Source of the DNA: Rhodothalassiaceae bacterium
Lineage (GTDB): Bacteria > Pseudomonadota > Alphaproteobacteria > Sphingomonadales > Rhodothalassiaceae
Assembly (NCBI GenBank): GCA_026004935.1
Contig: BPKC01000001.1
Location: 992,001-1,056,000 of the forward strand
DNA: 64,000 nucleotides
Direction of reading: 5' to 3'
In this document: one piece after another, positions 2,970 through 62,760 of the stretch
Layout of the letters: the number at the start of each line of letters is the position of its first letter
Position numbering within the stretch: the stretch's first letter is position 1
Notes under the pieces: model-generated
What the model saw: only the letters and a program-made list of their open reading frames with translations
What the model was told of the DNA's origin: nothing
Database searches by the model: none
Translations under genes and position numbers: made by a program

Positions 2970-3853
2970 GCGTGCGCACCGTTCTTCTGCTGCTCGCCCT
3001 CGTGATCCTGGGCTCGGTAGCGGGCTGCGGCCTGTTCACGGTCTACGAGACCGAACAGGCGCTCGTGATGCAGTACGGCAATCCGAAGCGCGTGGTCAAA
3101 GAGCCCGGCCTGCACTGGAAGATCCCCTTCCTGCAGCAGGTGACCTATTTCGACGCCCGGATCCTCAATCTCGACGTGCCGGCCCAGGAGGTGATCGCCT
3201 CCGACCAGAAGCGGCTCGAGGTCGACGCCTTCGCCCGCTACCGCATCATCGATCCGCTGCGCGTGTATCAGACCGTGCGCAACGAGAACGGGGCCAGCAA
3301 CCGGCTGGCCACGCTGCTCGTCTCGAACATGCGCCAGGTGCTCGCCGCCACCGATTTCCAGACCATCGTCTCCGGCGACCGCGAGAGGCTGATGCGCCAA
3401 ATCCGGGATCTCGTGAACCGGGAGGCCGAAGGTCTCGGCATCGAGGTCGTCGACGTGCGGCTGCGCCGGGTGGACCTGCCGATCGCGAATTCCAAGGCGA
3501 TCTTCGAGCGCATGCGCACCGAGCGCGAGCGCGAGGCGGCCGAGGCCCGCGCGGAGGGCCAGGAGCAGGCCCAGCGCATCCGCGCTCAGGCGGAGCGTGA
3601 ACGCACCGTGCTCCTGGCCGAGGCCGAACGCGATGCCCAGCGCATCCGCGGCGAGGGCGACGCCCAGGCCGTGCGGATCTTCGCCGAGGCCTTCTCGAAG
3701 GATCCCGCCTTTTTCGAGTTCATGCGCACGCTGGAGGCCTATCGCAAGACCTTCGCCGACGGCCAGACCACCGTCGTGCTTTCGCCGGAAAGCGAGTTCC
3801 TGAAACTCATGGGCGCCGGCGCCCGGGATGCGGAGCGCGGCGCGCGGCGGTGA
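2966..3853 (+). CDS. hflC: HflC, SPFH-domain partner of HflK
   Basis: HflC is the obligate partner of HflK in the FtsH-HflKC complex of the inner membrane. The protein has 295 residues. An N-terminal membrane anchor (about 4-23, TVLLLLALVILGSVAGCGLF) precedes the SPFH domain with the family signature YETEQALVMQYG and KEPGLHWKIPF. A long charged coiled coil rich in Glu/Arg/Ala (about 185-245) follows. The ATG overlaps the hflK stop by 4 bp. The length matches the family. A 15-bp gap separates it from the DUF2065 gene, consistent with one transcript. Confidence 0.95.
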   Translation: MSVRTVLLLLALVILGSVAGCGLFTVYETEQALVMQYGNPKRVVKEPGLHWKIPFLQQVTYFDARILNLDVPAQEVIASDQKRLEVDAFARYRIIDPLRVYQTVRNENGASNRLATLLVSNMRQVLAATDFQTIVSGDRERLMRQIRDLVNREAEGLGIEVVDVRLRRVDLPIANSKAIFERMRTEREREAAEARAEGQEQAQRIRAQAERERTVLLAEAERDAQRIRGEGDAQAVRIFAEAFSKDPAFFEFMRTLEAYRKTFADGQTTVVLSPESEFLKLMGAGARDAERGARR

Positions 3854-3868
3854 CGGGCCCGGTGACCG

Positions 3869-4069
3869 ATGGTCTCATGGCAGGATCTGTTCGCCGCATT
3901 GGGGCTTGTGCTCGTCATCGAGGGTGCGCTGGCGTTGACCGCGCCCGGGCTGGTAAAAGCGGCGGCGCGTTTCTACCAGGAGGCGAGCAGCCGCGCGCTG
4001 CGGACGGCGGGACTGGTCCTTGTCGTCGTCGGGCTCGGGGTGGTCGCGCTCGCCCGCGGCGTGCTCTAG
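3869..4069 (+). CDS. DUF2065 (YjeT-like) small inner-membrane protein
   Basis: This 66-residue protein has two hydrophobic segments (about 8-26 and 45-63) around a short loop containing AARFYQEASSRALR, the layout of the DUF2065/YjeT family. These proteins recur beside hflK-hflC in Proteobacteria, and this copy begins 15 bp after hflC and precedes the Do-like protease. The biochemical role of the family is unknown; the location suggests a link to membrane protein quality control. The start ATG at 3869 is the only sensible one. Confidence 0.85.
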   Translation: MVSWQDLFAALGLVLVIEGALALTAPGLVKAAARFYQEASSRALRTAGLVLVVVGLGVVALARGVL

Positions 4070-4225
4070 GAGAGCTGAGGCGGGCGGGACGCAGGAAGGA
4101 CATGCGTCGCGTGCAGGGGTGGAACGGATAGCGAGAGGGCCCGCCGGGCGTCCGACAGGGCCCCAGACCGACGGCGCCCGGTTTGACGACGAACAGAACG
4201 TGGTGACGGGAAAGGACGCGTGAAC

Positions 4226-5746
4226 ATGCGCGAGAGACTTCGGATCCGGATCGGGTGCGGCGTGCTCGCGGCCCTGCTGCTCATCGGCATTTCGGCCGGG
4301 ATCGGCCCCGCGGGCCGCGAAGAGGCGGCGGCCGCGCCGCGCGAGATGCCCGGCAGCTTCGCCGATCTCGTGGAGAAGCTGTCGCCTGCGGTCGTCAACA
4401 TCTCGACCACCCAGAAGGTCAAGCAGCCGCGCTTCCGCGGCCTGCCGCCGGGCAGTCCCTTCGAGGAATTCTTCGAGGAGTTCTTCAACCGCCAGCGGCC
4501 GAACCGCGATCGGGACCAGGATGAGGACGAGGATGACGAGCCGGCCCAGCGGCTCTACAGCCTGGGATCCGGCTTCATCATCGATCCCGACGGCTACATC
4601 GTAACCAACAACCACGTCGTCCAGGGCGCGGAGACCATCACGGTGCGCATGAAGGACGGCGAGGAATACGAGGCGAAACTCGTCGGCCGGGATGCGGAGG
4701 TGGACATCGCGCTGCTGAAGATCGATGCCGGCCGCAGGCTCCCCCATGTCGAATGGGGCGATTCGGATACCGCCCGCGTCGGCGACTGGGTGCTCGCCAT
4801 CGGCAATCCCTTCGGTCTCGGCGGCACGGTGACCGCGGGCATCATCTCCGCGCGCCACCGCCAGAATCTGACGGGCAGCCCCTACGAAGACTATCTGCAG
4901 ACCGACGCCTCCATCAACCGCGGCAATTCGGGCGGGCCGATGTTCAACCTGGACGGCAAGGTGATCGGCATCAACACGATGATCTTCTCGCCTTCCGGCG
5001 GCAACATCGGCATCGGCTTTGCGATCCCCTCCAATCTTGCGAAGCGGGTGGTGGAGCAGATCCGTCAGTACGGCTACGCCCGGCGCGGCTACATCGGCGT
5101 CGTGATCCAGAACGTCGACAAGGTCACGGCCGAGGCCATGGGGCTGGACGAGCCGAAGGGCGCGCTCGTGGCCGAGGTGACGCCCGGCGGGCCGGCGGAC
5201 AGGGCCGGGATCAAGCCGGGGGACGTCATCGTCGCCTTCAACGGCAAGGAGGTGAAGGACAACAACGAGCTCGTGCGTCTCGTCTCGGACGCCGGCATCG
5301 GCAAGACGGTCTCGATCGAGGTCCTGCGCGACGGCAAGCGTCTCAAGCTGTCGCTCACGACCGGCGAGCGTCCGAAGAGCCTGGTGCTGGGCGAAAGCGA
5401 CGAGGCCGGCCCCGGTCCCCGGCAGGAGACGCCACAGTCCGTGGGCGAGTCGCTCGGGCTGCGCCTGTCGGAGCTCACCCCCGCGATGCGCGACCGCTTC
5501 GACATTCCCGACAGCGTCGACGGCGTGATCGTGACCGACGTGAGCCAGCGCGCGGCGATGCGGGACGTGCGCCCCGGAGACATCATCACCGAGATCTCCG
5601 GGCGGCGGGTGAGCTCGGTCGCGGATGTCGCACGTGCGCTCGCCGATTTGAAGAAGGAGGGGCGCAAGGCCGTCCTTCTGCGCATCCTGCGCGGCGATCA
5701 GGCGCTGTTCCGCTCGATCCCGCTGCCGGAGGACAAGAAAGAGTAG
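4226..5746 (+). CDS. degP: Do-family periplasmic serine endoprotease (DegP/DegQ/MucD type)
   Basis: A periplasmic trypsin-like protease and chaperone that degrades misfolded envelope proteins. The protein has 506 residues. A signal peptide (about 1-37) precedes the protease domain, in which the catalytic triad is visible: His130 in TNNHVV, Asp160 in DAEVDIALL and Ser235 in GNSGGP. An acidic insert (RDRDQDEDEDDE, about 94-105) lies in the variable LA loop. Two PDZ domains follow (about 285-375 and 405-500). The frame opens at a GTG (4220), but AAAGGA at 4211-4216 is better spaced (9 nt) for the ATG at 4226. It closes the hflKC operon, as in many Alphaproteobacteria. Confidence 0.94.
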   Translation: MRERLRIRIGCGVLAALLLIGISAGIGPAGREEAAAAPREMPGSFADLVEKLSPAVVNISTTQKVKQPRFRGLPPGSPFEEFFEEFFNRQRPNRDRDQDEDEDDEPAQRLYSLGSGFIIDPDGYIVTNNHVVQGAETITVRMKDGEEYEAKLVGRDAEVDIALLKIDAGRRLPHVEWGDSDTARVGDWVLAIGNPFGLGGTVTAGIISARHRQNLTGSPYEDYLQTDASINRGNSGGPMFNLDGKVIGINTMIFSPSGGNIGIGFAIPSNLAKRVVEQIRQYGYARRGYIGVVIQNVDKVTAEAMGLDEPKGALVAEVTPGGPADRAGIKPGDVIVAFNGKEVKDNNELVRLVSDAGIGKTVSIEVLRDGKRLKLSLTTGERPKSLVLGESDEAGPGPRQETPQSVGESLGLRLSELTPAMRDRFDIPDSVDGVIVTDVSQRAAMRDVRPGDIITEISGRRVSSVADVARALADLKKEGRKAVLLRILRGDQALFRSIPLPEDKKE

Positions 5747-5897: not shown

Positions 5898-6863
5898 ATG
5901 ACGGCGAAACGGAACGGAGCGGGCGGCGGTGCGGAGGGCGGGGCGGATCTGCGCCTGACCCCCGATTCGGTGCTGGGTTCGCTCGTGGCGGCCGCACCGG
6001 CGCGTCTGCGTCCCTATCTGAAGCTGGCTCGGGTGGACCGGCCCACCGGCTACTGGCTGCTGCTGTGGCCCTGCTGGTGGTCGCTCGCCCTGGCGGCTCC
6101 GCTGGATCAGCCGCTGCGCTGGTGGCAGATGGCGCTGTTTCTGATCGGCGCCGTCGTCATGCGCGCGGCCGGCTGCGTGTGGAACGACATCCTCGACCGC
6201 GATCTCGACGCCCGGGTCGCCCGCACCCGCGACCGGCCCTTGCCCGCGGGCGAGGTGAGCGTGAGGGCCGCCATCGTCTTCCTGTGTCTGCTGCTTCTGG
6301 CCGGCCTTGCCGTGCTGCTGCAGTTCAACCGGTTTACGGTGATCCTCGGCGCCTCCTCGCTGCTGCTGGTGGCCGTCTATCCCCTCATGAAGCGGATCAC
6401 GGACTGGCCGCAGGCGGTGCTGGGGCTCACCTTCACCTGGGGTGCGCTCATGGGCTGGGCGGCCGTCCACGGGCGGCTCGACCCGCCGGCCTTCCTGCTC
6501 TATGGGGCGAGCTTCTTCTGGGCGCTCGGCTATGACACGATCTACGCGCTCCAGGACGCGCGCGACGACGCGGTGGCCGGCATCCGCTCCAGTGCGCGCG
6601 CTCTCGGCCCCTGGACGAAGGCGGGAGTCCTGATCTTCTACGCGCTCACCTGGCTGATGATGGCGGCCGCCGCGATCGCGGCCGGGCTGCCGCCGGTCAC
6701 GATCGGCCTGCTGCTGCCCGCGCTTGCGCATCTTCTCTGGCAGGTGCGGCGGCTGGACCCGGCCGATCCGGCGCTGGCGCTGAAACTCTTCCGTGCGAAC
6801 GGAGCCTTCGGCTGGCTGCCTTTCGTCGCCTTCGCCCTTGGCCGCGGCGTGCTGGCGGCGTAA
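5898..6863 (+). CDS. ubiA: 4-hydroxybenzoate polyprenyltransferase (ubiquinone biosynthesis)
   Basis: UbiA attaches the polyprenyl chain to 4-hydroxybenzoate in the inner membrane, the first membrane-bound step of ubiquinone synthesis. The protein has 321 residues with multiple membrane helices. Both Asp-rich prenyl diphosphate/Mg2+ motifs are present: NDILDRDLDARVARTRDRPL and YDTIYALQDARDD. The residues RPTGYWLLLWP near the N-terminus are typical of the family. The 3' end is unusual: its last 61 coding bases before the terminal codons are duplicated almost perfectly at 9729-9789, on the far side of an AT-rich segment. The C-terminus (RGVLAA) may therefore have been rebuilt by an insertion event. 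Confidence 0.93.
   Translation: MTAKRNGAGGGAEGGADLRLTPDSVLGSLVAAAPARLRPYLKLARVDRPTGYWLLLWPCWWSLALAAPLDQPLRWWQMALFLIGAVVMRAAGCVWNDILDRDLDARVARTRDRPLPAGEVSVRAAIVFLCLLLLAGLAVLLQFNRFTVILGASSLLLVAVYPLMKRITDWPQAVLGLTFTWGALMGWAAVHGRLDPPAFLLYGASFFWALGYDTIYALQDARDDAVAGIRSSARALGPWTKAGVLIFYALTWLMMAAAAIAAGLPPVTIGLLLPALAHLLWQVRRLDPADPALALKLFRANGAFGWLPFVAFALGRGVLAA
6794..6854 (+). repeat. 61-bp direct repeat, left copy (within ubiA 3' end)
   Basis: This 61-bp stretch matches 9729-9789 at 60 of 61 positions; the single difference is T at 6822 versus G at 9757. It encodes the ubiA C-terminus. The two copies bracket an AT-rich segment carrying the ATP-grasp peptide locus, like the duplicated target left by integration into the 3' end of a gene. 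Confidence 0.85.
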
Positions 6864-6933
6864 GCCGCCATGCGCCAGGCGGCGGGAAGATGATCCACCG
6901 TCCCCGCATGAATCCGCCGCCTGATTGCTTTCG

Positions 6934-7929
6934 TCACCGCCTCTGTGAGGCGCACGGCTCCCATGTGGGAGGCACACGGTCGCAGTCATTCCATGCGAAA
7001 TCCATCCAGGCAGGCGGAGAAGCGGTAAAGGCCGGCAGGATGAGTTCTGCGTCAAACGCGGCGTCAGGATCTGCATGCAGGGGGCGATATACCGGTGCCG
7101 CGATCGCAGGATGAGGGCGCAGGGGCTCGACCGGGCGCTCGCCGCAGCGGAGCCGGCTGGTTCCGGGTGCGCGGAAGCAGGACCAGCGCTCGCCCTGCAC
7201 CGCCCATACGTCGATGCTCCATGTCTGCAGGGTGCCGAGCTGCAACGGTATGGGAGGATCATCTGCGTAGGCGGGGTTGTCATAAGGTCTGGTGCGCGCA
7301 TGTCCTCGACCTGTCAGAACCACGACGCGGTCGGTTTTCTCCTTTTCGATGAGCGCCTTGATTCGGGCTGCCATGAAGGCGTTGCGCCGATTCGCATCGA
7401 TCCCCGCAGCCTTGCGCATGTCGGGATCATAGAAGTAATCTATCGCATGCACGAAGACCCGGTGTCCCTGCTGCCTCCATCCCCGTGCCCGTCGCAGGAG
7501 CCCGAGCATGGCACGGCTGCGTCGCCCATCCTGGTAATGGGCATCCCGCCAGAACCAGTTGTTCAAAATCCACGTGCGCTCATCCGCCGTCGCGCTGACC
7601 ATGTAGTTATACAGGTCGATTTCCAGTTCCGCGGGGAGTTCCAGCCCGAGCATGAGGCTCTCGTGCTGCGATATGATGGCCTCCCCGAGGCAAGAAACGA
7701 GCGTGGGGGCTTCTTCCGTTCCGTGCAGCTCACCGACAAAAATTACTTTATATTCTACAATCTTCTCCACTATGTCCTGTATGGACTTGCAAAGGTTTGA
7801 GTGCGCCCCTTCTTCACGCGCATGAGCTTCGCTTATTGCCAGGAGACTGAATGAAACCGCAATGGCAGCCAGATGGATTGTATAAAATAGTATCTGAGTT
7901 TTTGCAAGGATTTGCTTCGCGCTGCGCAT
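6934..7929 (-). CDS. Secreted Tiki/ChaN/EreA-superfamily protein in the ATP-grasp peptide locus
   Basis: A predicted exported protein of 331 residues with an N-terminal signal peptide (about 1-36, ending before REEGAHSN). The mature part carries hallmarks of the Tiki/EreA/ChaN-like fold: FVGELHGTEEAP (conserved GE-x-H), LGLELP and GRGHAR. Known relatives include metal-dependent peptidases (Tiki), haem-binding ChaN and erythromycin esterases, so hydrolase activity is possible but not shown. GGGGAGG upstream is 9 nt from the ATG at 7929 and only 3 nt from an alternative ATG at 7935. The 5' third is AT-rich and the 3' part GC-rich. It lies downstream of the ATP-grasp gene on the same strand, so it may process, export or give resistance to the peptide. 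That role is inference. Confidence 0.75.
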   Translation of the reverse strand: MRSAKQILAKTQILFYTIHLAAIAVSFSLLAISEAHAREEGAHSNLCKSIQDIVEKIVEYKVIFVGELHGTEEAPTLVSCLGEAIISQHESLMLGLELPAELEIDLYNYMVSATADERTWILNNWFWRDAHYQDGRRSRAMLGLLRRARGWRQQGHRVFVHAIDYFYDPDMRKAAGIDANRRNAFMAARIKALIEKEKTDRVVVLTGRGHARTRPYDNPAYADDPPIPLQLGTLQTWSIDVWAVQGERWSCFRAPGTSRLRCGERPVEPLRPHPAIAAPVYRPLHADPDAAFDAELILPAFTASPPAWMDFAWNDCDRVPPTWEPCASQRR

Positions 7930-7935
7930 CTGCAT

Positions 7936-8070
7936 ATGCCTCCCCGCTTAGGATTTTTCATATTAAGAATAATAGATGGTTGCATTGATACGAACTTATT
8001 CTATAGAGATATTGATATTACAAAATCATCGTAATACTTAAATTACAACATTATCATTATTAATATGTCT
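7936..8070. other. AT-rich intergenic region between ATP-grasp gene and Tiki-like gene
   Basis: This 135-bp stretch is strikingly AT-rich for this chromosome and holds no credible reading frame. It contains the ribosome site of the Tiki-like gene (GGGGAGG, minus strand) and several TATA-like hexamers that could act as promoters. I could not single out one promoter. Confidence 0.5.
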
Positions 8071-9231
8071 CTATTCAAAATAGAAAAAGGTCTTTTCTTC
8101 AGACTCACCCGAAAAAGTCAGCCTGGCCTCATTAATAATTGTTTCTCTTTTCAAATAATTCGCTATTGAATGCATTTTTTCGCATGATTTAATGTTTATG
8201 TCCAGCAACTTAGCCACATATTTTGCGAAACAATCAAGTAAAGGAAATTTATTATTCACCATGTCCATCCATAGCCATTGGCCATAAGGGTTTATCTCTA
8301 AGAAATATATTCTACCATTTGAATCGCGTCTGAGATCTATTACGCAGTAATCAAGATTTAATCCTCTGGTTAACTTGATACATAAATAACTTATATCGTC
8401 GGGTATATAAATTGGCTCTATCAAGATATTTCTATTTAGGTAATATTCAATTTTCCAGTCTGGTGTCAAATAATCTATAGATCGCCTTTTAATGTAAGCC
8501 GAAAATACATTGCGGCCAATTACAACTATTCGTATATCCTTTCCATCAGAAATGTATTCTTGGAAAATAACTGGACATTGCAAAATAGAGGATCTATTTC
8601 GTTCAATATCTTCAGAATTTATAACTCTTGCAAGTGTTGGCACAACATTTCCATTTTTTGTAATCCACATTCCTGGACGCATTGATTTGGCGACAACTCC
8701 ACATGGATGGTCTCGTAAAAACTGAAGCGCTTTTGATGGGTCATTTGTTATAATTGTAGATGGGATATTAAATCCGATTTGCTGGGCCAACTCAATCTGG
8801 AATGGTTTAGATGATGCAAGCCAGCCGCTTATAGGGTTGTTAATGCAGCGATATTTTTCTGCAATGATCGCATAGGCTCCTAAAATAAAAGATTCTGTTT
8901 CTGATTTTGCAAATTCCACGTCGTTAGCGCTAATGCAGAAAGAGAAATTTCGTGCAGGGAGTTTTCGAAAAATGAATAATTTGGCATGGCATATTTGGTC
9001 TGGGTGAATGGACAAGTTTAACGGTATGGATGTTTCTCCGCGGCCAGAAAAGGAAATTGATGCGCGATGGTTACTAGGAAAATTGCTCCAGCTTACAACT
9101 CGTGAGCTAATTCCGATCTGCGATAGGCGTAATTTTAGTGCGACTGCGTGGTCGTCCCATTCACGTGTGAAAATTATGCAATCGGGGTGCCGAGTTTTTG
9201 TGTTCATGGCAAACGAACTTGCATCCGACAT
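8071..9231 (-). CDS. MvdC/MvdD-type ATP-grasp ligase, putative graspetide synthetase (locus 1)
   Basis: A 386-residue ATP-grasp enzyme of the RimK/MvdD-like group, which forms ester or amide links between side chains of a precursor peptide. The N-terminal pre-ATP-grasp part (about 1-120) opens with PDCIIFTREWDDHAV. The ATP-grasp region shows GVVAKSMRPGMW (nucleotide-binding Lys), PVIFQEYISDGKDIR, and the metal-binding C-terminal motif FLEINPYGQWLW (Glu312, Asn314). The 'LEINPxGQWxW' signature points to peptide maturases rather than glutathione or D-Ala ligases. The gene is very AT-rich, unlike flanking chromosomal genes, suggesting transfer. The start is uncertain: ATG 9231 is only 7 nt past a strong hairpin, while ATG 9207 would free the start. 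The precursor peptide lies 98 bp upstream. Confidence 0.82.
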   Translation of the reverse strand: MSDASSFAMNTKTRHPDCIIFTREWDDHAVALKLRLSQIGISSRVVSWSNFPSNHRASISFSGRGETSIPLNLSIHPDQICHAKLFIFRKLPARNFSFCISANDVEFAKSETESFILGAYAIIAEKYRCINNPISGWLASSKPFQIELAQQIGFNIPSTIITNDPSKALQFLRDHPCGVVAKSMRPGMWITKNGNVVPTLARVINSEDIERNRSSILQCPVIFQEYISDGKDIRIVVIGRNVFSAYIKRRSIDYLTPDWKIEYYLNRNILIEPIYIPDDISYLCIKLTRGLNLDYCVIDLRRDSNGRIYFLEINPYGQWLWMDMVNNKFPLLDCFAKYVAKLLDINIKSCEKMHSIANYLKRETIINEARLTFSGESEEKTFFYFE

Positions 9232-9238
9232 ATCTACA

Positions 9239-9273
9239 ATGGAGAGGTGCCGCTTACCACGTCACCTCTCCAT
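9239..9273 (-). promoter_or_regulatory. Hairpin between precursor peptide and ATP-grasp gene (locus 1)
   Basis: A perfect 11-bp stem (arms 9239-9249 and 9263-9273) with a 13-nt loop separates the two genes. No U tract follows, so it is not an ordinary terminator. Such structures between RiPP precursor and enzyme genes commonly set the peptide-to-enzyme expression ratio. It ends 7 nt before the first ATG of the ligase gene and could also limit its translation. Confidence 0.6.
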
Positions 9274-9329
9274 ACTGGGTCACACGATGACCGCGCCCCC
9301 GTCTCTACTAGCTACGGGGAACGAATTTC

Positions 9330-9527
9330 CTATTCGTCGTTGCATTGGCAAATTGCTGCACCACAGTCGTCTGGTCCAAGCGAAGGCAGCCGCGGTGGCG
9401 TAATAGGTGTTGGATTTGGGCAGGGGTCCTCTTCCGGGCCGCTACCAGTGATGTGGGCGATTTCGTCAGAGGTCAGTGCACGTCCGATTTGGCGCGCAAA
9501 CACACGCTCTTGATGGCGCTCCTTCAT
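9330..9527 (-). CDS. Putative ATP-grasp RiPP precursor peptide (locus 1)
   Basis: A 65-residue peptide with a strong ribosome site (GGAGAGGAGG, 6 nt before ATG 9527). The N-terminal half looks like a RiPP leader: MKERHQERVFARQ, then RALTSDEIAHITGSG (residues 16-30), a relaxed double-glycine motif. The C-terminal core (about 31-65) is Pro-rich and has four Cys (36, 55, 60, 62), Thr40, Thr43 and Ser49 as possible acceptors, and Asp/Glu at 32-34, 53-54 and 64-65 as possible donors for side-chain esters. The leader motif recurs in the second ATP-grasp locus (43884-44135) and in the bacteriocin-like gene near 17.5 kb. The product is unknown; precursor status is inferred from context and leader. 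Confidence 0.75.
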   Translation of the reverse strand: MKERHQERVFARQIGRALTSDEIAHITGSGPEEDPCPNPTPITPPRLPSLGPDDCGAAICQCNDE

Positions 9528-9563
9528 CGACTACCTCCTCTCCTTCATTGTTCGTCGGGTTCC

Positions 9564-9584
9564 AAAAAGGCTCCACAGGGAGCC
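9564..9584 (-). terminator. Terminator-like hairpin in the 5' leader of precursor 1 (attenuator candidate)
   Basis: On the minus strand, GGCTCC-CTGT-GGAGCC is followed directly by TTTTT: a compact intrinsic-terminator shape. It sits between the candidate promoter (9593-9621) and the precursor start at 9527. No minus-strand gene lies upstream for it to terminate, so attenuation or 5'-end protection of the peptide mRNA is more likely. Confidence 0.6.
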
Positions 9585-9592
9585 GCGACATA

Positions 9593-9621
9593 AAAATACG
9601 AGAAAGAGAAAAAGACAACAA
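9593..9621 (-). promoter_or_regulatory. Candidate sigma70-type promoter for peptide locus 1
   Basis: On the minus strand, TTGTTG (9621-9616) and TATTTT (9598-9593) are 17 nt apart, upstream of the precursor peptide. Transcription would begin near 9586, right at the terminator-like hairpin. Confidence 0.45.
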
Positions 9622-9728
9622 CCGCACCCATCACGTTTGATCACAATTCCGTGAGCGAATTAGGATAGGAGCCGCGCACCACGGATCGACGCCCCATCCG
9701 GCTCGGCGCATGTTTTCAGGATATTTCC

Positions 9729-9789
9729 TGCGAACGGAGCCTTCGGCTGGCTGCCTGTCGTCGCCTTCGCCCTTGGCCGCGGCGTGCTG
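9729..9789 (+). repeat. 61-bp direct repeat, right copy (displaced ubiA 3' end)
   Basis: A 60/61 match to 6794-6854. In frame it would encode a ubiA tail ending RGVLMD plus stop, but there is no upstream ubiA body. It abuts the HIG1-like gene and probably represents the original chromosomal end of ubiA, separated by insertion of the peptide locus. Confidence 0.85.
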
Positions 9790-9835
9790 ATGGACTAGGC
9801 AGGGCGCACAGGCAGCCCGTCAAGGGGACACAGCC

Positions 9836-10036
9836 ATGGCCACCGTGCTCTTCTATCTCGTGCCGCTGCTCCTCATCGCCGCGCTCGCCGTCATCCTGCT
9901 CGGCGTCTTCAACCTGACGAAGCCGGGGATCGAGAGCCGCCGGCGCTCCAATCGCCTGATGCAGTGGCGCATCGCGATCCAGGCCACCGCGATCCTCGTG
10001 ATCCTGCTGCTGGTCACCATCTTCGCGAAGGGGTGA
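9836..10036 (+). CDS. HIG1-domain-like twin transmembrane protein
   Basis: A 66-residue protein with two membrane helices (about 5-26 and 45-63) joined by a basic loop, ESRRRSNRLMQWRIAIQ. The 'N+LM-W-RI--Q' segment is characteristic of bacterial HIG1 (hypoxia-induced) and 'twin transmembrane' proteins, some of which associate with respiratory complexes. AAGGGGA lies upstream of the ATG. It ends 5 bp before the cobalamin adenosyltransferase start, an arrangement seen in other Alphaproteobacteria. Function is not established. Confidence 0.8.
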   Translation: MATVLFYLVPLLLIAALAVILLGVFNLTKPGIESRRRSNRLMQWRIAIQATAILVILLLVTIFAKG

Positions 10037-16654: not shown

Positions 16655-16728
16655 TCGCAGGAGCGGTCGTCGGTCATCGGCGGTCGGTCTTCAGGGCGGA
16701 GCCAATCCGCCCGCAAGAACCCCCTTGG

Positions 16729-16872
16729 CGTCGTTCGCCGGCTCGACCGGCGAACCCAAGAGGCCTGCGTGCCGGCTCCGACGCCGGAGGTCAACTCGAC
16801 CGTCCGCCGGACCCGCCGGCTGATGCTGAAGGCGGGTACCCACCGGTCAAGCCGCAGGTGAAAGGATGAGGA
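16729..16872. repeat. Dispersed palindromic repeat, diverged copy (cluster R1)
   Basis: The only feature in the 415-bp gene-free stretch 16655-17069. It begins with the palindrome TTCGCCGGCTCGACCGGCGA, as in the clusters at 18.2, 25.8 and 62.1 kb, followed by a GAGGCCTGCGTG segment and degenerate downstream arms. This copy is the most diverged. Small frames here come from the repeat and are not genes. Confidence 0.75.
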
Positions 16873-17708: not shown

Positions 17709-18182
17709 GGTTTGAACTCCCCTCATTTACCAGTCTGCACCAGGACCCGGGCCTGCCGTCAAGACAAGCCAGCCGCCGACCGCAGAAAGCGCGCAAGGAA
17801 CCCCCCTCCGCAGCGGACCACGCCCTCTGCACACGGCGCACTGCCCGCTTTTCTGCACCGGCTCCACTGTCGGGAAGCACTCCCTCGCATCCCCCAAACC
17901 CCGACCCGATGCGCGGGGTGCACCGCTTCCCTCCCGGATCACCCGGTGACCTCCACCGGGCACCGACCCCACTACCCCCCCCAGGTTGCTATTTGTCAAG
18001 TGCAGAATGATATCCGCACGCACGGGACGCGTGCTGCGGCACTCCCCCCTGCGGGTCGCCTTATCCTCCAGAGTTCCTTGTCGACACATGCATGTCCACA
18101 CGACAACATAACCGACCGCCTCAGGGACGCCTTTCTCCTCAGGCGTGACCATCGTCCCCTGGGCCCATGATTGTTCCGCTTC
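17709..18182. other. Gene-free leader and upstream region of the bacteriocin-like operon
   Basis: No credible gene is visible in this 474-bp stretch; short frames lack family likeness and ribosome sites. It contains the candidate promoter at 17969-17999, which would give a long leader of about 250 nt. Base composition is C-rich on the plus strand and unlike coding DNA. Confidence 0.5.
17969..17999 (-). promoter_or_regulatory. Candidate promoter with G8 tract for bacteriocin-like operon
   Basis: On the minus strand a perfect -35 hexamer TTGACA (17999-17994) is followed, after 19 nt that end in a run of eight G (17982-17975), by TAGTGG. The layout TTGAC..AATA..G-run..TAG resembles the region upstream of peptide locus 2 (43744-43776). 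The spacing is longer than optimal. Confidence 0.35.
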
Positions 18183-18655
18183 CGGCTGGACCCGCCGGTC
18201 AAGCCGGCGGGTGACGAGGGAAAAAGTGGCCCCGCCTTTCAGGCCGATAAGTGACGAGGAGAAAGTGCCGGCAGGTGACGAGGGGTACGCATGCACGCGC
18301 CGCTGCCGCTCCCCGTTCCGCTGGCTGATGACTGACAACTGACGACTGTTCACCGAATTGTCGTTCGCCGGCTCGACCGGCGAACCCATGAGGCGCGCCT
18401 GACGGCCCCGACGCCGGAGGGCATCTCGACCGCCGGCTGGACCCGCCGGTCGAGCCGCCGGGTGACGCAAAGAGGGAGAGCCGGGTGGCGCCGGCCATTC
18501 CGATCACTAATGACTGATCACTGACGACTGATACGTCGTTCGCCGGCTCGACCGGCGAACCCATGAGGCCTGCGTGCCGGCTCCGACGCCGGAAGGCATC
18601 TCGACCGCCGGCTGGACCCGCCGGTCGAGCCGATGGGTGACGAAGAGGAAGAGTG
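18183..18655. repeat. Dispersed palindromic repeat, three tandem copies (cluster R2)
   Basis: Three consecutive partial-to-complete units (about 18183-18358, 18361-18536, 18537-18655). Each has paired palindromes (for example TTCGCCGGCTCGACCGGCGA and CCCGCCGGTCAAGCCGGCGG, whose cores are inverted copies of each other). The units also carry GCATGCACGCGCCGCTGCCG and ACTGA heptads. Open frames across the copies shift frame from unit to unit, so they are not proteins. The cluster separates glpK from the bacteriocin-like operon. Confidence 0.85.
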
Positions 18656-25751: not shown

Positions 25752-26345
25752 GCCCGCGGGTGACGAAGAAAGAGTAGTGGCGGGTAACGCTTCCCCCTCG
25801 CGTCGTTCGCCGGCTTGACCGGCGAACCCATGAGGCCTGCGTGTCGGCCCGGGCGCCGGAGGGCATTTCGACCGTCGGCTGGACCCGCCGGTCAAGCCGG
25901 CGGGTGACGAGGAGAGAGTGCCGGCGGGTGACGAGGAGTACGCATGCACGCGCCGCTGCCGCTCCCCGTTCCGCTGGCTGACGACTGACAACTGACGACT
26001 GGTCACTGAATCGTCGCTCGCCGGCTTGACCGGCGAACCCAGCCCACGGTGGTGACAGCACCCGGCTCCGGAGGTCGGCCCCGCTGGCGGCTGGACCCGC
26101 CGGTCGAGCCGGCGGGTGACGAAGATAGGGTGCCGGTGGGTGACGAAGAAAGGGGGGGCGCGTGACGAAGCGAAAGTGCCGGCGGGTGACGAGGAGATTG
26201 GGTGCCGGAGAGCAGTGTCGGATAACGACGAAGAGAGAGTGCCGGCGGGCGGTGCTCACCAGGCCGGTCGCCGATGACCGATGACTGACGACTGATCACT
26301 GAATCGTGGTTCGCCGGCTTGACCCGCGAACCGGCGAGGCCGGGG
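25752..26345. repeat. Dispersed palindromic repeat cluster (R3)
   Basis: Fills most of the 719-bp gene-free stretch between the TSUP and sdhB genes. One complete unit (25801-26010) and one diverged unit (26011 to about 26270) are followed by a partial palindrome (about 26303-26340). Units carry paired palindromes, GGTGACGAGGAGA-type spacers, GCATGCACGCGCCGCTGCCG and ACTGA heptads near 25980-26010 and 26276-26302. I see no gene or terminator for sdhB other than these hairpins. Confidence 0.88.
25801..26016. repeat. 216-bp repeat unit, identical to 62337-62552
   Basis: Read base by base, this stretch is identical to 62337-62552, 36,536 bp away; the first mismatch is C26017 versus T62553. Other copies in the window differ at many positions, so this pair reflects recent copying or gene conversion. 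Confidence 0.92.
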
Positions 26346-43883: not shown

Positions 43884-44135
43884 ATGGCTATTCCATCGTC
43901 CGCAAACAGGGTCGTCAAGCCTTTCATCCTCAATAAGAAAGAGGATATTCGGGCGTTGCGGAATGATGCGGCGGGTTCTTTTCGTACCCTTTCCAGTCAG
44001 GAAATCAACCAAATAGGCGGCAGCAATGACCTTGGCTCGATACTGCCGCAATCTACCTGCTGCTTTATAAATACCCTTGAGGTCCTTCATTTTGGCTGTT
44101 GCCTTGGTGATGACGGGACCATTGACGCTGAGTAA
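43884..44135 (+). CDS. Putative ATP-grasp RiPP precursor peptide (locus 2)
   Basis: An 83-residue peptide with AGGGAGAG 5 nt before the ATG. A charged leader (1-46) ends in FRTLSSQEINQIGGSND (33-49), the same motif as the locus 1 peptide (RALTSDEIAHITGSG). The core (about 47-83) holds two Cys pairs (59-60, 72-73), Ser/Thr at 52, 57, 58, 64 and 79, and acidic residues at 66, 76, 77, 81 and 83. These are suitable for side-chain ester or amide cross-links. Like the locus 1 peptide it has four core Cys and an acidic C-terminus. It is followed by a hairpin and an ATP-grasp gene. No database family is recognised. Confidence 0.75.
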   Translation: MAIPSSANRVVKPFILNKKEDIRALRNDAAGSFRTLSSQEINQIGGSNDLGSILPQSTCCFINTLEVLHFGCCLGDDGTIDAE

Positions 44136-44165
44136 CTGCCGGTAGGCAAAAAGTACTCTCTGCGC

Positions 44166-44209
44166 TCCTGCTCCGATGTTTGCTTTCAAGCGTCGGGGTA
44201 GGAGCAGGA
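44166..44209 (+). promoter_or_regulatory. Hairpin between precursor peptide and ATP-grasp gene (locus 2)
   Basis: Arms TCCTGCTCC (44166-44174) and GGAGCAGGA (44201-44209) pair perfectly over 9 bp; CCGATG/CGTCGG inside can form a competing stem. It occupies the same place as the hairpin in locus 1. It is not followed by a U tract. Confidence 0.55.
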
Positions 44210-44244
44210 ATAATTGCAATTGCATCGGAGTCAGAGGTAGGGGT

Positions 44245-45309
44245 ATGGGTAAGGTTCCCAAGACACTTCTCATTTTTGGTGGGATTGATGATGCTCACGT
44301 CCGTTTTGTAGCAAGACGGTTGCGCGTTCTGGGTGTGCGCTGTCTTTTCTACGATGCCGTGAGAGCGTTACCTGTCCATTTTCCGATCACGCCAGTCATT
44401 GGTATGGCTTTTAATAGTGGCACAATAACAACAGAAGAAATCATAGATGATGAGGGATGTGAGAAAATTAACAAAGTGATTGTTGCGTTTTATGACGACA
44501 TAGAATGGATTTGGATAAGACATAAGAAGTTTGTAGATTTAATAAATACAAAAGAGGATCAGTGGCTTTATGTCTCATCAAAAGAAAACGAAGCTCTTTT
44601 TAGATCACTTATAATAGCATACGATGCCAAGTCATTCAACTCGTTGGATGCCATATTTAGAATGAGAAGCAAGATTAACCAAATAGTTATAGCAATGTCT
44701 GTCGGGTTTTCTGTGCCTGAAACAATTATATCTTCTAATAAAGAAATGATAGAAGAATTCATGTCCGTTTATAGGAATATAATTGTGAAACCATTATCCA
44801 TAAATTTTGTTCCACCTCCAGCAGATGGTTCGGACACCTTTATGACGATTCTGACAAATGAGGTGAAGAAGGAGGATTTCGAATTGTTCTCGGATTTGGA
44901 GTTTTCTGCTGCTCCCTCCATCTATCAGAGGAAACTTGACAAGGCCTATGAAGTTCGCCTCGTCGCATTTGGTGATGAGTGTGTTGCCTACAAGATTGAT
45001 TCGCAACGCAGTCGCCGTGGTCAGCTCGATTGGCGTCGAGCGCAATATGAGGCTATTTATGAGCAGATGGAGCCAACCTCTGAAATGCATGAGAAAGCTT
45101 GTGCTTTTCTGGAGAGAAGCGGCCTCCATTACGGTGTCTTCGATCTGGTGGTCGATCGGTGCGACCGTCTGTGGTTTCTCGAATGCAACAGCGATGGCCA
45201 GTGGGCGTGGCTGGAGCCGGCCGGAAACGGGCCGATCGTTCAAATGTTCGCCCGGCAAATTGCCCGTCTTATGGGGGTATCGGAAAAGGAGCGCTGCTCG
45301 GCCTTTTAA
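44245..45309 (+). CDS. MvdC/MvdD-type ATP-grasp ligase, putative graspetide synthetase (locus 2)
   Basis: A 354-residue ATP-grasp protein resembling the locus 1 enzyme in order and motifs. The N-terminal domain (about 1-115) starts KVPKTLLIFGGIDDAHVRFV. The ATP-grasp part shows NIIVKPLSINFVPPP, SIYQRKLDKAYEVRLVAFG and FLECNSDGQWAWLEPAGNG (Glu313, Asn315), equivalent to FLEINPYGQWLW in locus 1. ATG 44245 has GAGGTAGGGG upstream; an in-frame ATG at 44176 lies inside the hairpin and is unlikely. The first two thirds are AT-rich and the last third GC-rich, suggesting recombination or amelioration. Confidence 0.83.
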   Translation: MGKVPKTLLIFGGIDDAHVRFVARRLRVLGVRCLFYDAVRALPVHFPITPVIGMAFNSGTITTEEIIDDEGCEKINKVIVAFYDDIEWIWIRHKKFVDLINTKEDQWLYVSSKENEALFRSLIIAYDAKSFNSLDAIFRMRSKINQIVIAMSVGFSVPETIISSNKEMIEEFMSVYRNIIVKPLSINFVPPPADGSDTFMTILTNEVKKEDFELFSDLEFSAAPSIYQRKLDKAYEVRLVAFGDECVAYKIDSQRSRRGQLDWRRAQYEAIYEQMEPTSEMHEKACAFLERSGLHYGVFDLVVDRCDRLWFLECNSDGQWAWLEPAGNGPIVQMFARQIARLMGVSEKERCSAF

Positions 45310-45365
45310 GGGTGCGGAAGCACAGATGTAGACGGATATCGATAGGATGGGGGGAAGTGAAAGAT

Positions 45366-46361
45366 ATGCGTATACGTGCAGCGCTGGTCGTTTTGCTGCT
45401 TGCGTCTGGGTTATGGAGGGGTGAGCATCTCCATGCTGCTGCTGTCCCGGAGCCGAGGCCCGTTCTAGGCAGTGTTCGCGGCTATCTCGAGAGACAGACC
45501 GATCGTCTGATTGGGAGTGTCGCACTTCCGGAGGAGATGGGCAGTGGTGCGCAAAAGGTGGCCAAGCCTTTGGGGATAAGAAGGATCCGACGGGTCGGAG
45601 CTGCGCTCTGCTATGGTGAGACTGCTGCGAAGGTTGCACAGCAACTGGCGCAGGGATTTGGTGCAACGCTGAGGAGGAAGGGGTGGTCACGCGAAGATTG
45701 GCTGATGGCGAGCAAGGCTGGCCGGTCGCGGTTAATGCAGGATGTGTCGACACGGTTTGAAAACGCTGTCAGGGTCTTTCTCTACCGCGGTCATTCTATT
45801 CGCTTCGCTGAACCCATTACCGATGTGAAGGGAGAATTCTTCGCGCGAGCAGCTTTGGATCAGGCATTGCGCGCAGAGCTCGGCGCTCTGTTTCATGCAC
45901 GTCGCAAGGGGGTCGTGGCAGACGCTCAATTCATTCTCGCTATCGGCTTGGCCTGTCTGGTGCAGGCGGACAATGCGGATCGCCTATTGGCGCTGCTCGA
46001 GAGAGGCTGGGATCCCTTCGATATCCCTGATCCGCGCGGACCTTTCGAGGGCTCCTTCACGGTTGTCTACCACCATATGACGCAGCGGACGCAAGCGGAG
46101 CGCTTGCGCAACTGGGTGGCGAACGCTTTCCGGCAGGGGAAGGTCTCCGTACTCACCTATGCCGGCAGTGAGGACTTCTACGAACAGCGCTTTGGTAGCG
46201 GCAAGCAGATTTATGGAACCTATGGCCACTGTCGTCATGGACGTTACCAGCCGTATCCTTCAATTCTCGACAAGGAGCGGGCTGCCGATTTCTGGAAGGC
46301 TCACAAAGCCAAGGCGCCATGGGAGGGAAATATGTGTCAGCACCCTGTAGACAGTCGTTAG
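45366..46361 (+). CDS. Secreted protein of unknown family in peptide locus 2
   Basis: A 331-residue protein with a signal peptide (about 1-26, ALVVLLLASGLWRGEHLHAA). The mature part is soluble and largely helical, with few Cys (in ALCYGE, LACLVQ, HCRHGRY, NMCQHP), and includes RVGAALCYGETAAKVAQQLA and YGTYGHCRHGRYQPYPSILD. I recognise no domain. GGGGGAAG lies 8 nt before ATG 45366. It follows the ATP-grasp gene by 56 bp and precedes a terminator, so the order peptide, ligase, secreted protein mirrors locus 1, although this protein is not a Tiki homologue. Processing or immunity is possible. Confidence 0.7.
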   Translation: MRIRAALVVLLLASGLWRGEHLHAAAVPEPRPVLGSVRGYLERQTDRLIGSVALPEEMGSGAQKVAKPLGIRRIRRVGAALCYGETAAKVAQQLAQGFGATLRRKGWSREDWLMASKAGRSRLMQDVSTRFENAVRVFLYRGHSIRFAEPITDVKGEFFARAALDQALRAELGALFHARRKGVVADAQFILAIGLACLVQADNADRLLALLERGWDPFDIPDPRGPFEGSFTVVYHHMTQRTQAERLRNWVANAFRQGKVSVLTYAGSEDFYEQRFGSGKQIYGTYGHCRHGRYQPYPSILDKERAADFWKAHKAKAPWEGNMCQHPVDSR

Positions 46362-62110: not shown

Positions 62111-62136
62111 CGCCGACACGCCACCGGACCGCCCGC

Positions 62137-62760
62137 CGGGTTTCTCGGCGAACCCACGAGGCCTGCGTGACAACCCGACGCCGGAGGCCATCTCGGCCGT
62201 CGGCTGGACCCGCCGGTCGAGCCGGCGGGTGACGAGGAGAAAGTGCCGGCAGGTGGCGAGTAGCACGCATGCACGCGCCGCTGCCGCTCCCCGTTCCGCT
62301 GGCTGATGACTGACAACTGACGACTGATCACTGAACCGTCGTTCGCCGGCTTGACCGGCGAACCCATGAGGCCTGCGTGTCGGCCCGGGCGCCGGAGGGC
62401 ATTTCGACCGTCGGCTGGACCCGCCGGTCAAGCCGGCGGGTGACGAGGAGAGAGTGCCGGCGGGTGACGAGGAGTACGCATGCACGCGCCGCTGCCGCTC
62501 CCCGTTCCGCTGGCTGACGACTGACAACTGACGACTGGTCACTGAATCGTCGTTCGCCGGCTCGACCGGCGAACCCATGAGGCCTGCGTGACAACCCGAC
62601 GCCGGAGGCCATCTCGGCCGTCCGCTGGACCCGCCGGTCAAGCCGGCAGGTGACGCAAAGCGGGAGAGCCGGGCAGGAGCCGAGCAGCCCGGCGCCGCGC
62701 GCGGTGCGCCCGATCACTGACGAAAGACGGCTGACCACCGACGATCGATGATCGACGACT
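62137..62760. repeat. Dispersed palindromic repeat cluster (R4)
   Basis: Occupies the 667-bp gene-free interval between lysK and the PqqD-like gene. Three units are recognisable (about 62137-62336, 62337-62552 and 62553-62760). Units have paired GC palindromes, GCATGCACGCGCCGCTGCCG and ACTGA heptads; the last one degenerates into GACGATCGATGATCGACG. Frames across it are repeat-derived and not proteins. Confidence 0.88.
62337..62552. repeat. 216-bp repeat unit, identical to 25801-26016
   Basis: Identical over all 216 positions to the unit at 25801-26016, in the same orientation. The neighbouring units on either side are diverged. Confidence 0.92.

Follow-up and report, generated by a model that had tools for sequence, protein, structure and literature searches.

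A probable graspetide-type cassette with an unusual core and a Tiki-type partner gene, bracketed by a duplicated gene end in a Rhodothalassiaceae bacterium

Genes of the cassette

The window analyzed here is a stretch of 64,000 nucleotides from the genome of a Rhodothalassiaceae bacterium (G000:C1:992001-1056000, G000 being the source genome of 2.9 Mb in two contigs). At 6934-9621 it harbors a locus, called cassette A below, which is quite likely a compact cassette for a graspetide-type ribosomally synthesized and post-translationally modified peptide (RiPP). The cassette is formed by genes for a small precursor, an ATP-grasp ligase and a protein of the ChaN/Tiki/erythromycin esterase (Ere) superfamily (Table 1). 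The first-pass annotation of the window had described three minus-strand genes here, and all three open reading frames (ORFs) were found open; the third gene ends at 6934 as described, but its start is better placed at 7935 than at 7929. A clear ribosome-binding site of the ligase gene was not seen by eye. The composition of the locus is indeed unlike the surroundings (GC 0.64-0.76 in flanking windows), mainly by virtue of the ligase: GC is 0.376 in this gene, 0.576 in the precursor gene and 0.592 in the third gene, where it rises from 0.47 over the first 50 codons to 0.71 in the last block. An AT-rich gap of 135 nt separates the ligase and the third gene. Two features go beyond the first-pass annotation, namely a 66-bp duplication of a ubiA 3' end bracketing the locus and a second cassette (W2) at 43884-46361. 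No match was obtained at the locus with PADLOC, at the gathering score of Rfam over 6700-9900, or in plasmid DNA searched with the whole locus.

The ligase had been labeled as MvdD-type. Graspetide-like is the best reading of its matches: TIGR04187 is the best NCBIfam profile (2e-38), followed by MvdD (1.3e-33) and MvdC (1.7e-28), and matches in the PDB comprise CdnC (7mgv, 7e-27), 5ig9 (1e-23), AMdnB (7m4s, 9.5e-16) and 7drm (3.5e-8). The MvdD label itself is imprecise and close kinship with MvdD is unsupported, as the profile E-values are significant but the curated cut-offs are not reached (116.5 bits against 475 for the MvdD equivalog TIGR04184). In a tree of 30 ligases the protein occupies a long branch of unsure placement, apart from the paralogues of its own genome. 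Its grouping there with Allorhiz and Burk_stagn (86/88) was flagged as a meeting of long branches, and for this reason no kinship is claimed. Because of the profile scores, the structure matches and the long unsure branch, the ligase is, as far as its sequence tells, a divergent member of the graspetide synthetase superfamily and no close MvdD. Residues invariant among eight ligases of the genus include K182, R234, D299, E312 and N314, which we take to be of the catalytic kind.

The precursor consists of a leader up to about residue 30, ending with ITGSG, and a Cys/Pro-rich core of ~35 residues with four Cys, two Thr, one Ser, seven Asp/Glu and no Lys; the translation thus offers both the Ser/Thr and the Asp/Glu side chains expected as donors and acceptors of a graspetide core. 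Nine other candidate precursors lie beside ligases of the genus: one each in W2, L012 (also L040, G000:C1:2749500-2758500), L013, L014 (in G001, a sister genome of the same genus) and L015, and four in L011, where two ligases are accompanied by four small ORFs with leaders. The first 31 residues of the precursor were aligned to all nine and compared with 2000 shuffles. Scores of 39-56 were obtained with the four L011 peptides and L015 (equaled by 0, 0, 2, 0 and 0 shuffles, respectively), and W2 gave a weaker sixth match (score 33, 5 shuffles as good). The core matched none of the nine (229-1886 of 2000 shuffles equal). A leader shared by five or six of nine precursors in combination with unrelated cores is the RiPP pattern, which supports the RiPP-like leader claimed for this ORF; the first-pass annotation would have been contradicted by ligase homologues regularly devoid of a neighboring small ORF with such a leader, and this is not the case in the genus. 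ITGSG reads as a double-glycine-like site, and at its position the leaders of the relatives end with SGAG, AGAG, SGG or AGG. Microviridin-type leaders have a PFFARFL-like motif; the PF motif is absent from the cassette A precursor and present (by eye) in those of W2, L012, L013 and L014. The precursor matched no family of Pfam or NCBIfam at E 1 and nothing in plasmids, and a weak PHROG match (0.0084) falls on a family of unknown function.

The description of the third protein as Tiki-like and secreted agrees with a ChaN/Tiki superfamily match that barely exceeds its cut-off (PF04187 of Pfam; 27.8 bits, cut-off 27.7), with an N-terminus that looks like a signal sequence by eye and with the 2His/2Glu pattern of the Tiki/Ere superfamily. 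All 20 proteins of an alignment keep the residues of this pattern, E67-x-H69, E97 and H210 (counted from the ATG at 7929). In a Tiki-superfamily enzyme the 2His/2Glu motif is essential for activity, and it recurs in the erythromycin esterases, whose substrates are esters and proteins (PMC6254334, excerpts). The spacing of that enzyme, E-x-H followed by E 30 residues on, is the same here, and the GExHG motif, the distal G..H and the hydrophobic N-terminus are likewise shared with the superfamily, whereas the 19 aligned relatives are 22-32% identical and none of them has an adjacent ligase match. Relatives were detected at E 1e-3 in 22 of 296 genomes of the order, the source genome included, and at 19 further loci with available flanks no ligase match was found within ~1.5 kb (0/19). 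Searches of this protein gave nothing meaningful in the PDB and no match in plasmids and phages; 27 stretches of viral contigs matched by pattern (query A3), none of which was confirmed. The sequence suggests a hydrolase which could act on the peptide for self-protection or processing, a role to which we assign somewhat less than an even chance.

A stable RNA hairpin lies between the precursor and ligase genes, and the corresponding regions of W2 (z -6.22), L012 (z -5.62) and L014 (z -3.60) also fold more stably than each of 200 shuffles, which makes four of the five three-gene cassettes of the genus (A, W2, L012, L013 and L014). The longest stems are 11 pairs in A, 19 in W2, 14 in L012, 10 in L014 and 8 in L013. 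Since an unbroken stem of at least 11 pairs is present in 82 of 1926 control windows, taken with overlap from this sequence, stem length alone is striking just in W2 and L012. Upstream of the precursor gene there are an operator-like palindrome and a terminator-like hairpin. The palindrome pattern CTCACGN4TGTGANCA occurs with up to one mismatch at 10 genome sites (two for the reversed control), including A, L012, L013 and W2; some of the other sites precede genes of secreted-looking proteins, so the element is not cassette-specific. With two mismatches TGAACAN4CCCTCTTGAC is found at four genome sites, three of them ahead of W2, L012 and L013; it was seen by eye at L014, and cassette A is devoid of it. 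In the promoter-like element upstream of the W2, L012, L013 and L014 precursors, TTGAC and a box similar to TAGAGT are separated by a run of G (11 in W2), which is possibly phase-variable. Neither terminator-like sites in the region (3 against 3.5 in shuffles) nor promoter-like sites in the locus (5 against 3.6, standard deviation 2.1) are in clear excess.

Table 1. Features of cassette A, its insertion site and the second cassette (W2) of the window
Feature	Position	Strand	Remarks
ubiA-like prenyltransferase gene	5898..6863	+	insertion site
Left direct-repeat copy	6789..6854	+	3' end of intact ubiA; 66 bp, 97.0%
Third gene, ChaN/Tiki/Ere superfamily	6934..7935	-	333 aa; GGGGAGG in front; hydrophobic signal-like N-terminus (by eye)
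ATP-grasp ligase	8071..9231	-	386 aa; GC 0.376; contains FLEINPYGQWLW
RNA hairpin between precursor and ligase	9239..9273	-	98-nt region, -43.3 kcal/mol, z -3.89, 0/200 shuffles
Precursor	9330..9527	-	65 aa; AGGAGG seven bases ahead of ATG; four Cys
Terminator-like hairpin with T run	9569..9584	-	upstream of precursor; possible attenuator
Operator-like palindrome CTCACGGAATTGTGATCA	9638..9655	-	upstream of precursor
Right repeat copy, ubiA 3'-end remnant	9725..9798	+	own stop codon; repeat match 9725-9789
W2 precursor	43884..44135	+	83 aa
W2 ligase	44245..45309	+	start uncertain; ORF opens at 44176
W2 secreted protein	45366..46361	+	same family as in L012 and L014; QIYGT-like motif; start set by eye

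Duplicated gene ends and related loci

The recurrent duplication of gene ends is the least expected part of the finding. (The names ubiA, glcD, acyl-CoA dehydrogenase and adenosyltransferase were assigned by eye and come from no family search.) At cassette A the ubiA-like gene is intact, and the remnant on the far side of the cassette corresponds to UbiA residues 285-319 in a protein search. In G001 the site is empty: ubiA is directly followed by a 66-aa gene and an adenosyltransferase gene. This 66-aa gene was not found beside ubiA in the other five genomes of the family, so the empty site is based on one genome. At cassette L014 the duplicated piece is the 3' end of a glcD-like gene (46 bp, 93%). 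The AT-rich cassette L012 lies between repeats of 751 bp (95.6%), within which the 3' end of an acyl-CoA dehydrogenase gene is identical at 215 of 215 bases. The L012 repeat also contains an interspersed repeat family of the genome; this GC-rich intergenic repeat with ~210-bp units is seen in the L012 flanks and at 16697-16842, 18148-18647, 25769-26341 and 62126-62655 of the window. No ligase match was present in the available flanks of the G000 glcD-like and G001 acyl-CoA dehydrogenase loci, and they do not represent clean empty sites, as the expected far-side gene was not found there.

Flanking repeats were searched for at 22 of the 23 ligase loci (L015 has no flank and a few flanks are short). 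Repeats of at least 50 bits were found at four loci, all in the genus; at the 15 loci outside the genus they reached at most 30.1 bits, and W2 (33.7 bits), L011 (29.2) and G000:731850 (31.0) were negative. Among 49 control pseudo-sites the interspersed repeat gave four at 133-260 bits and the rest reached 41; among 85 overlapping pseudo-sites of the source genome (26 hits of the interspersed repeat skipped) one, a tandem bacteriocin-like array, gave 692 bits and the rest no more than 45.5. The direct repeat of L013, considered as a further gene-end duplication, is borderline with 50.9 bits against this background of 45.5 and was not counted, which leaves three clear cases (A, L012 and L014).

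With lengths of 46, 66 and 751 bp, the repeats give no hint of a single fixed attachment site. No integrase or transposase was found between the repeats of cassette A, where the three genes fill the space and the largest gap is 197 nt (antisense ORFs were outside this search). Integration of a circle carrying a short piece of a gene end, or of a trimmed integrase element, would fit duplicated gene ends in either case. It is tentatively proposed that the cassettes of the genus (2.9-3.1 kb) are a non-autonomous mobile family devoid of its own recombinase, which would insert at the 3' ends of various genes (ubiA, acyl-CoA dehydrogenase, glcD-like oxidase) so that the gene remains whole on one side and a duplicated 3' stub stands on the other. 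The exported third protein would be exchangeable between a Tiki type and a QIYGT type, with a promoter-like element common to four of the five three-gene cassettes; the Tiki-type protein would be an esterase opening the lactones of the peptide as immunity.

At 1e-20 the ligase family has seven matches in G000, two in G001 and one in G002, i.e. in three of the seven genomes of the family sample, and matches in 13 of 296 genomes of the order. Six of 385 genomes of the class match the cassette A ligase at 1e-12, and none of the five ligase loci in other genomes of this sample has a real ChaN-like match (best E 0.9). W2, in which GC falls to 0.37, lacks flanking repeats, and a related cassette lies at a different gene in G001. 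The secreted protein of W2 belongs to one family with those of L012 and L014; membership in DUF6624, suspected from a QIYGT resemblance, is not claimed, as Pfam at E 0.5 gave no match. The L013 ligase is represented by two overlapping ORFs (3443-3763 and 3730-4419) and may be broken, and at L099 (G000:C1:731850-732335) a short ligase-like stretch lies in an open frame of 221 aa, perhaps a remnant. Scanning of named genomes with the W2, L012 and L014 ligases gave 76 pattern stretches with one confirmed (RFIU01000118.1, the metagenome-assembled genome Alphaproteobacteria bacterium isolate J084); genome contigs scanned with the cassette A ligase gave 14 with none confirmed, and viral contigs scanned with the ligase gave no stretch. 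Plasmid records matching the ligase number 82, of which five were inspected. In the Sinorhizobium and Croceicoccus plasmids a small or repeat-bearing ORF ahead of the ligase has TKT..ESDD-like repeats, similar to plesiocin-type cores, and the third protein after the ligase is unlike that of cassette A. On a Burkholderia stagnalis plasmid (L163, 2430-3998) a protein resembling secreted metalloproteases in sequence, with Thr/Asp-rich repeats at its end, directly precedes a graspetide-type ligase.

Proposed pathway and competing explanations

The gene layout, the leader/core pattern, the conservation of residues and the presence of transporter genes were observed directly, whereas every chemical step of the pathway, and likewise what the third protein does, is inferred. 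The precursor would be produced in excess of the ligase, because the RNA hairpin lies between the two genes. The ligase would recognize the leader and form lactones in which Asp/Glu side chains of the core are linked to those of Thr or Ser. The leader of double-glycine type would then be cleaved, export would proceed through C39-peptidase/NHLM-type transporters whose genes lie in trans, and the four Cys would probably form disulfides outside the cytoplasm. The exported ChaN/Tiki protein would act on the product, most likely by hydrolysing the ester links or the backbone, as self-protection or final trimming. C39 domains were detected in G000, G001 and G002. A C39 transporter matches at L127, below the curated cut-off, and at L128 an NHLM HlyD protein gives 226 bits against a curated cut-off of 156, the ATP-binding cassette (ABC) subunits being under theirs. 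L127 (9378-13398) itself contains a repeated array of three double-glycine bacteriocin-like genes, two of them with a CNCQC motif near the C-terminus, which adjoins a C39-peptidase ABC transporter; in the NHLM-type export genes of L128 (2831-8448) the peptidase and permease parts are apparently in different frames.

Several observations weigh against this picture. Cassette A contains no transporter gene, and the export genes lie elsewhere in the genome: the C39 transporter of L127 adjoins its own bacteriocin-like genes, the peptidase of L128 is a separate short frame, and C39 genes occur also in G004, a genome with no ligase match, so that the co-occurrence of C39 and ligase is weak. The leaders of three of the nine precursors do not rise above shuffles (627, 165 and 310 of 2000 equal for L012, L014 and L013), and the inter-gene hairpin of L013 is unremarkable (z -1.35, 17/200 shuffles as stable). 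All NCBIfam scores of the ligase are far under the curated cut-offs. To our knowledge the core fits no graspetide core pattern, and its ring connectivity is not assignable. The ChaN-like partner stands beside a ligase in cassette A only, different third proteins being encoded in the remaining four three-gene cassettes of the genus, and the single-sequence AlphaFold model of the third protein is useless (pLDDT, the predicted local distance difference test, is 38), for which reason no fold search was made with it.

It is also conceivable, though rather doubtful, that the peptide is modified while the ChaN/Tiki-like gene has no part in the system, being a passenger or a paralogue of the host that was trapped where the cassette ends. 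Relatives at E<=1e-3 in 21 other genomes of the order (of 296), with none of 19 loci having a ligase match, would agree with a passenger, as would the climb of GC at the 3' end of the gene and the AT-rich gap in front of it. The gene is nevertheless located inside the direct repeats on the strand of the ligase and precursor, and its first 50 codons are AT-rich. Moreover, each of the other four three-gene cassettes of the genus likewise ends with a gene whose product has, by eye, a signal-like N-terminus, and graspetide loci elsewhere are reported to contain relatives of Tiki and Ere (PMC8939145, excerpts).

An RimK-like or tagging ATP-grasp enzyme which adds amino acids to a protein or metabolite, with the small ORF being there by chance, appears highly improbable. 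The ligase does match the RimK family (Pfam, 3.6e-8) and a phage glutaminyl-transferase profile of PHROG (4e-14), but graspetide profiles and structures score far better, and the small ORF is preceded by a ribosome-binding site and begins with a leader common to other ligase-linked ORFs. Decay of cassette A to an inactive state is unlikely as well: a low-GC ligase in a high-GC genome, the sporadic distribution in the family and the broken appearance of related loci (the two overlapping ligase ORFs of L013, the short stretch at G000:731850 and a G002 match in two pieces) would be compatible with it, whereas in cassette A the three ORFs are open, the first and third are preceded by ribosome-binding sites, and the motifs and the operator-like site are kept. 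The graspetide-like peptide system proposed by the first-pass annotation remains the best reading, given the matches to solved synthetases and the leader shared with ligase-linked ORFs. Cassette A is real and probably works as a graspetide-type system, its core being unusual and its partner of the Tiki type, and horizontal acquisition is likely part of its explanation.

Comparison with known graspetide systems

In the full-text literature, with most subscription journals outside the coverage, nothing was found on graspetide ATP-grasp enzymes in alphaproteobacteria or on graspetides with direct repeats, and the term alphaproteobacter- is absent from the main text of PMC8939145. As described in excerpts of that paper (Makarova et al. 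2022), branch 2 graspetide loci carry Tiki/TraB proteins and branch 4 loci of gammaproteobacteria combine a relative of erythromycin esterase with a GG-motif precursor. Branch 2 differs from cassette A by its occurrence in bacteria of the candidate phyla radiation (CPR), by cluster 23 proteins and often by SPASM enzymes, and branch 4 by a double-glycine peptidase inside the locus. Carter et al. 2026 (PMC13097080, excerpts) list 24 earlier and 19 new graspetide groups, some of which have NHLM transporters, proteases or unknown partner proteins; the core and third gene of cassette A could be matched to none of them as described in the main text. Graspetides include potent serine protease inhibitors (PMC13097080, same excerpts).

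Cassette A likely adds a new variant to the known kinds of graspetide system, and its mode of insertion is unexplained. Its four-Cys core could combine lactones with disulfides, and the linked Tiki/Ere-type hydrolase is a candidate self-resistance enzyme for graspetides. Repeat-bracketed cassettes, taken together with the empty site of the sister genome, would illustrate how peptide pathways of this small size move when they carry no recombinase themselves. With the known graspetide systems (MvdC/MvdD, MdnB/MdnC, CdnC and PsnB-type) cassette A shares the ATP-grasp profile, the conserved residues and a leader/core peptide beside the ligase; it differs from them by a ligase that stays below every matched NCBIfam cut-off, by the long branch of this ligase and by a Cys/Pro-rich, Lys-free core.

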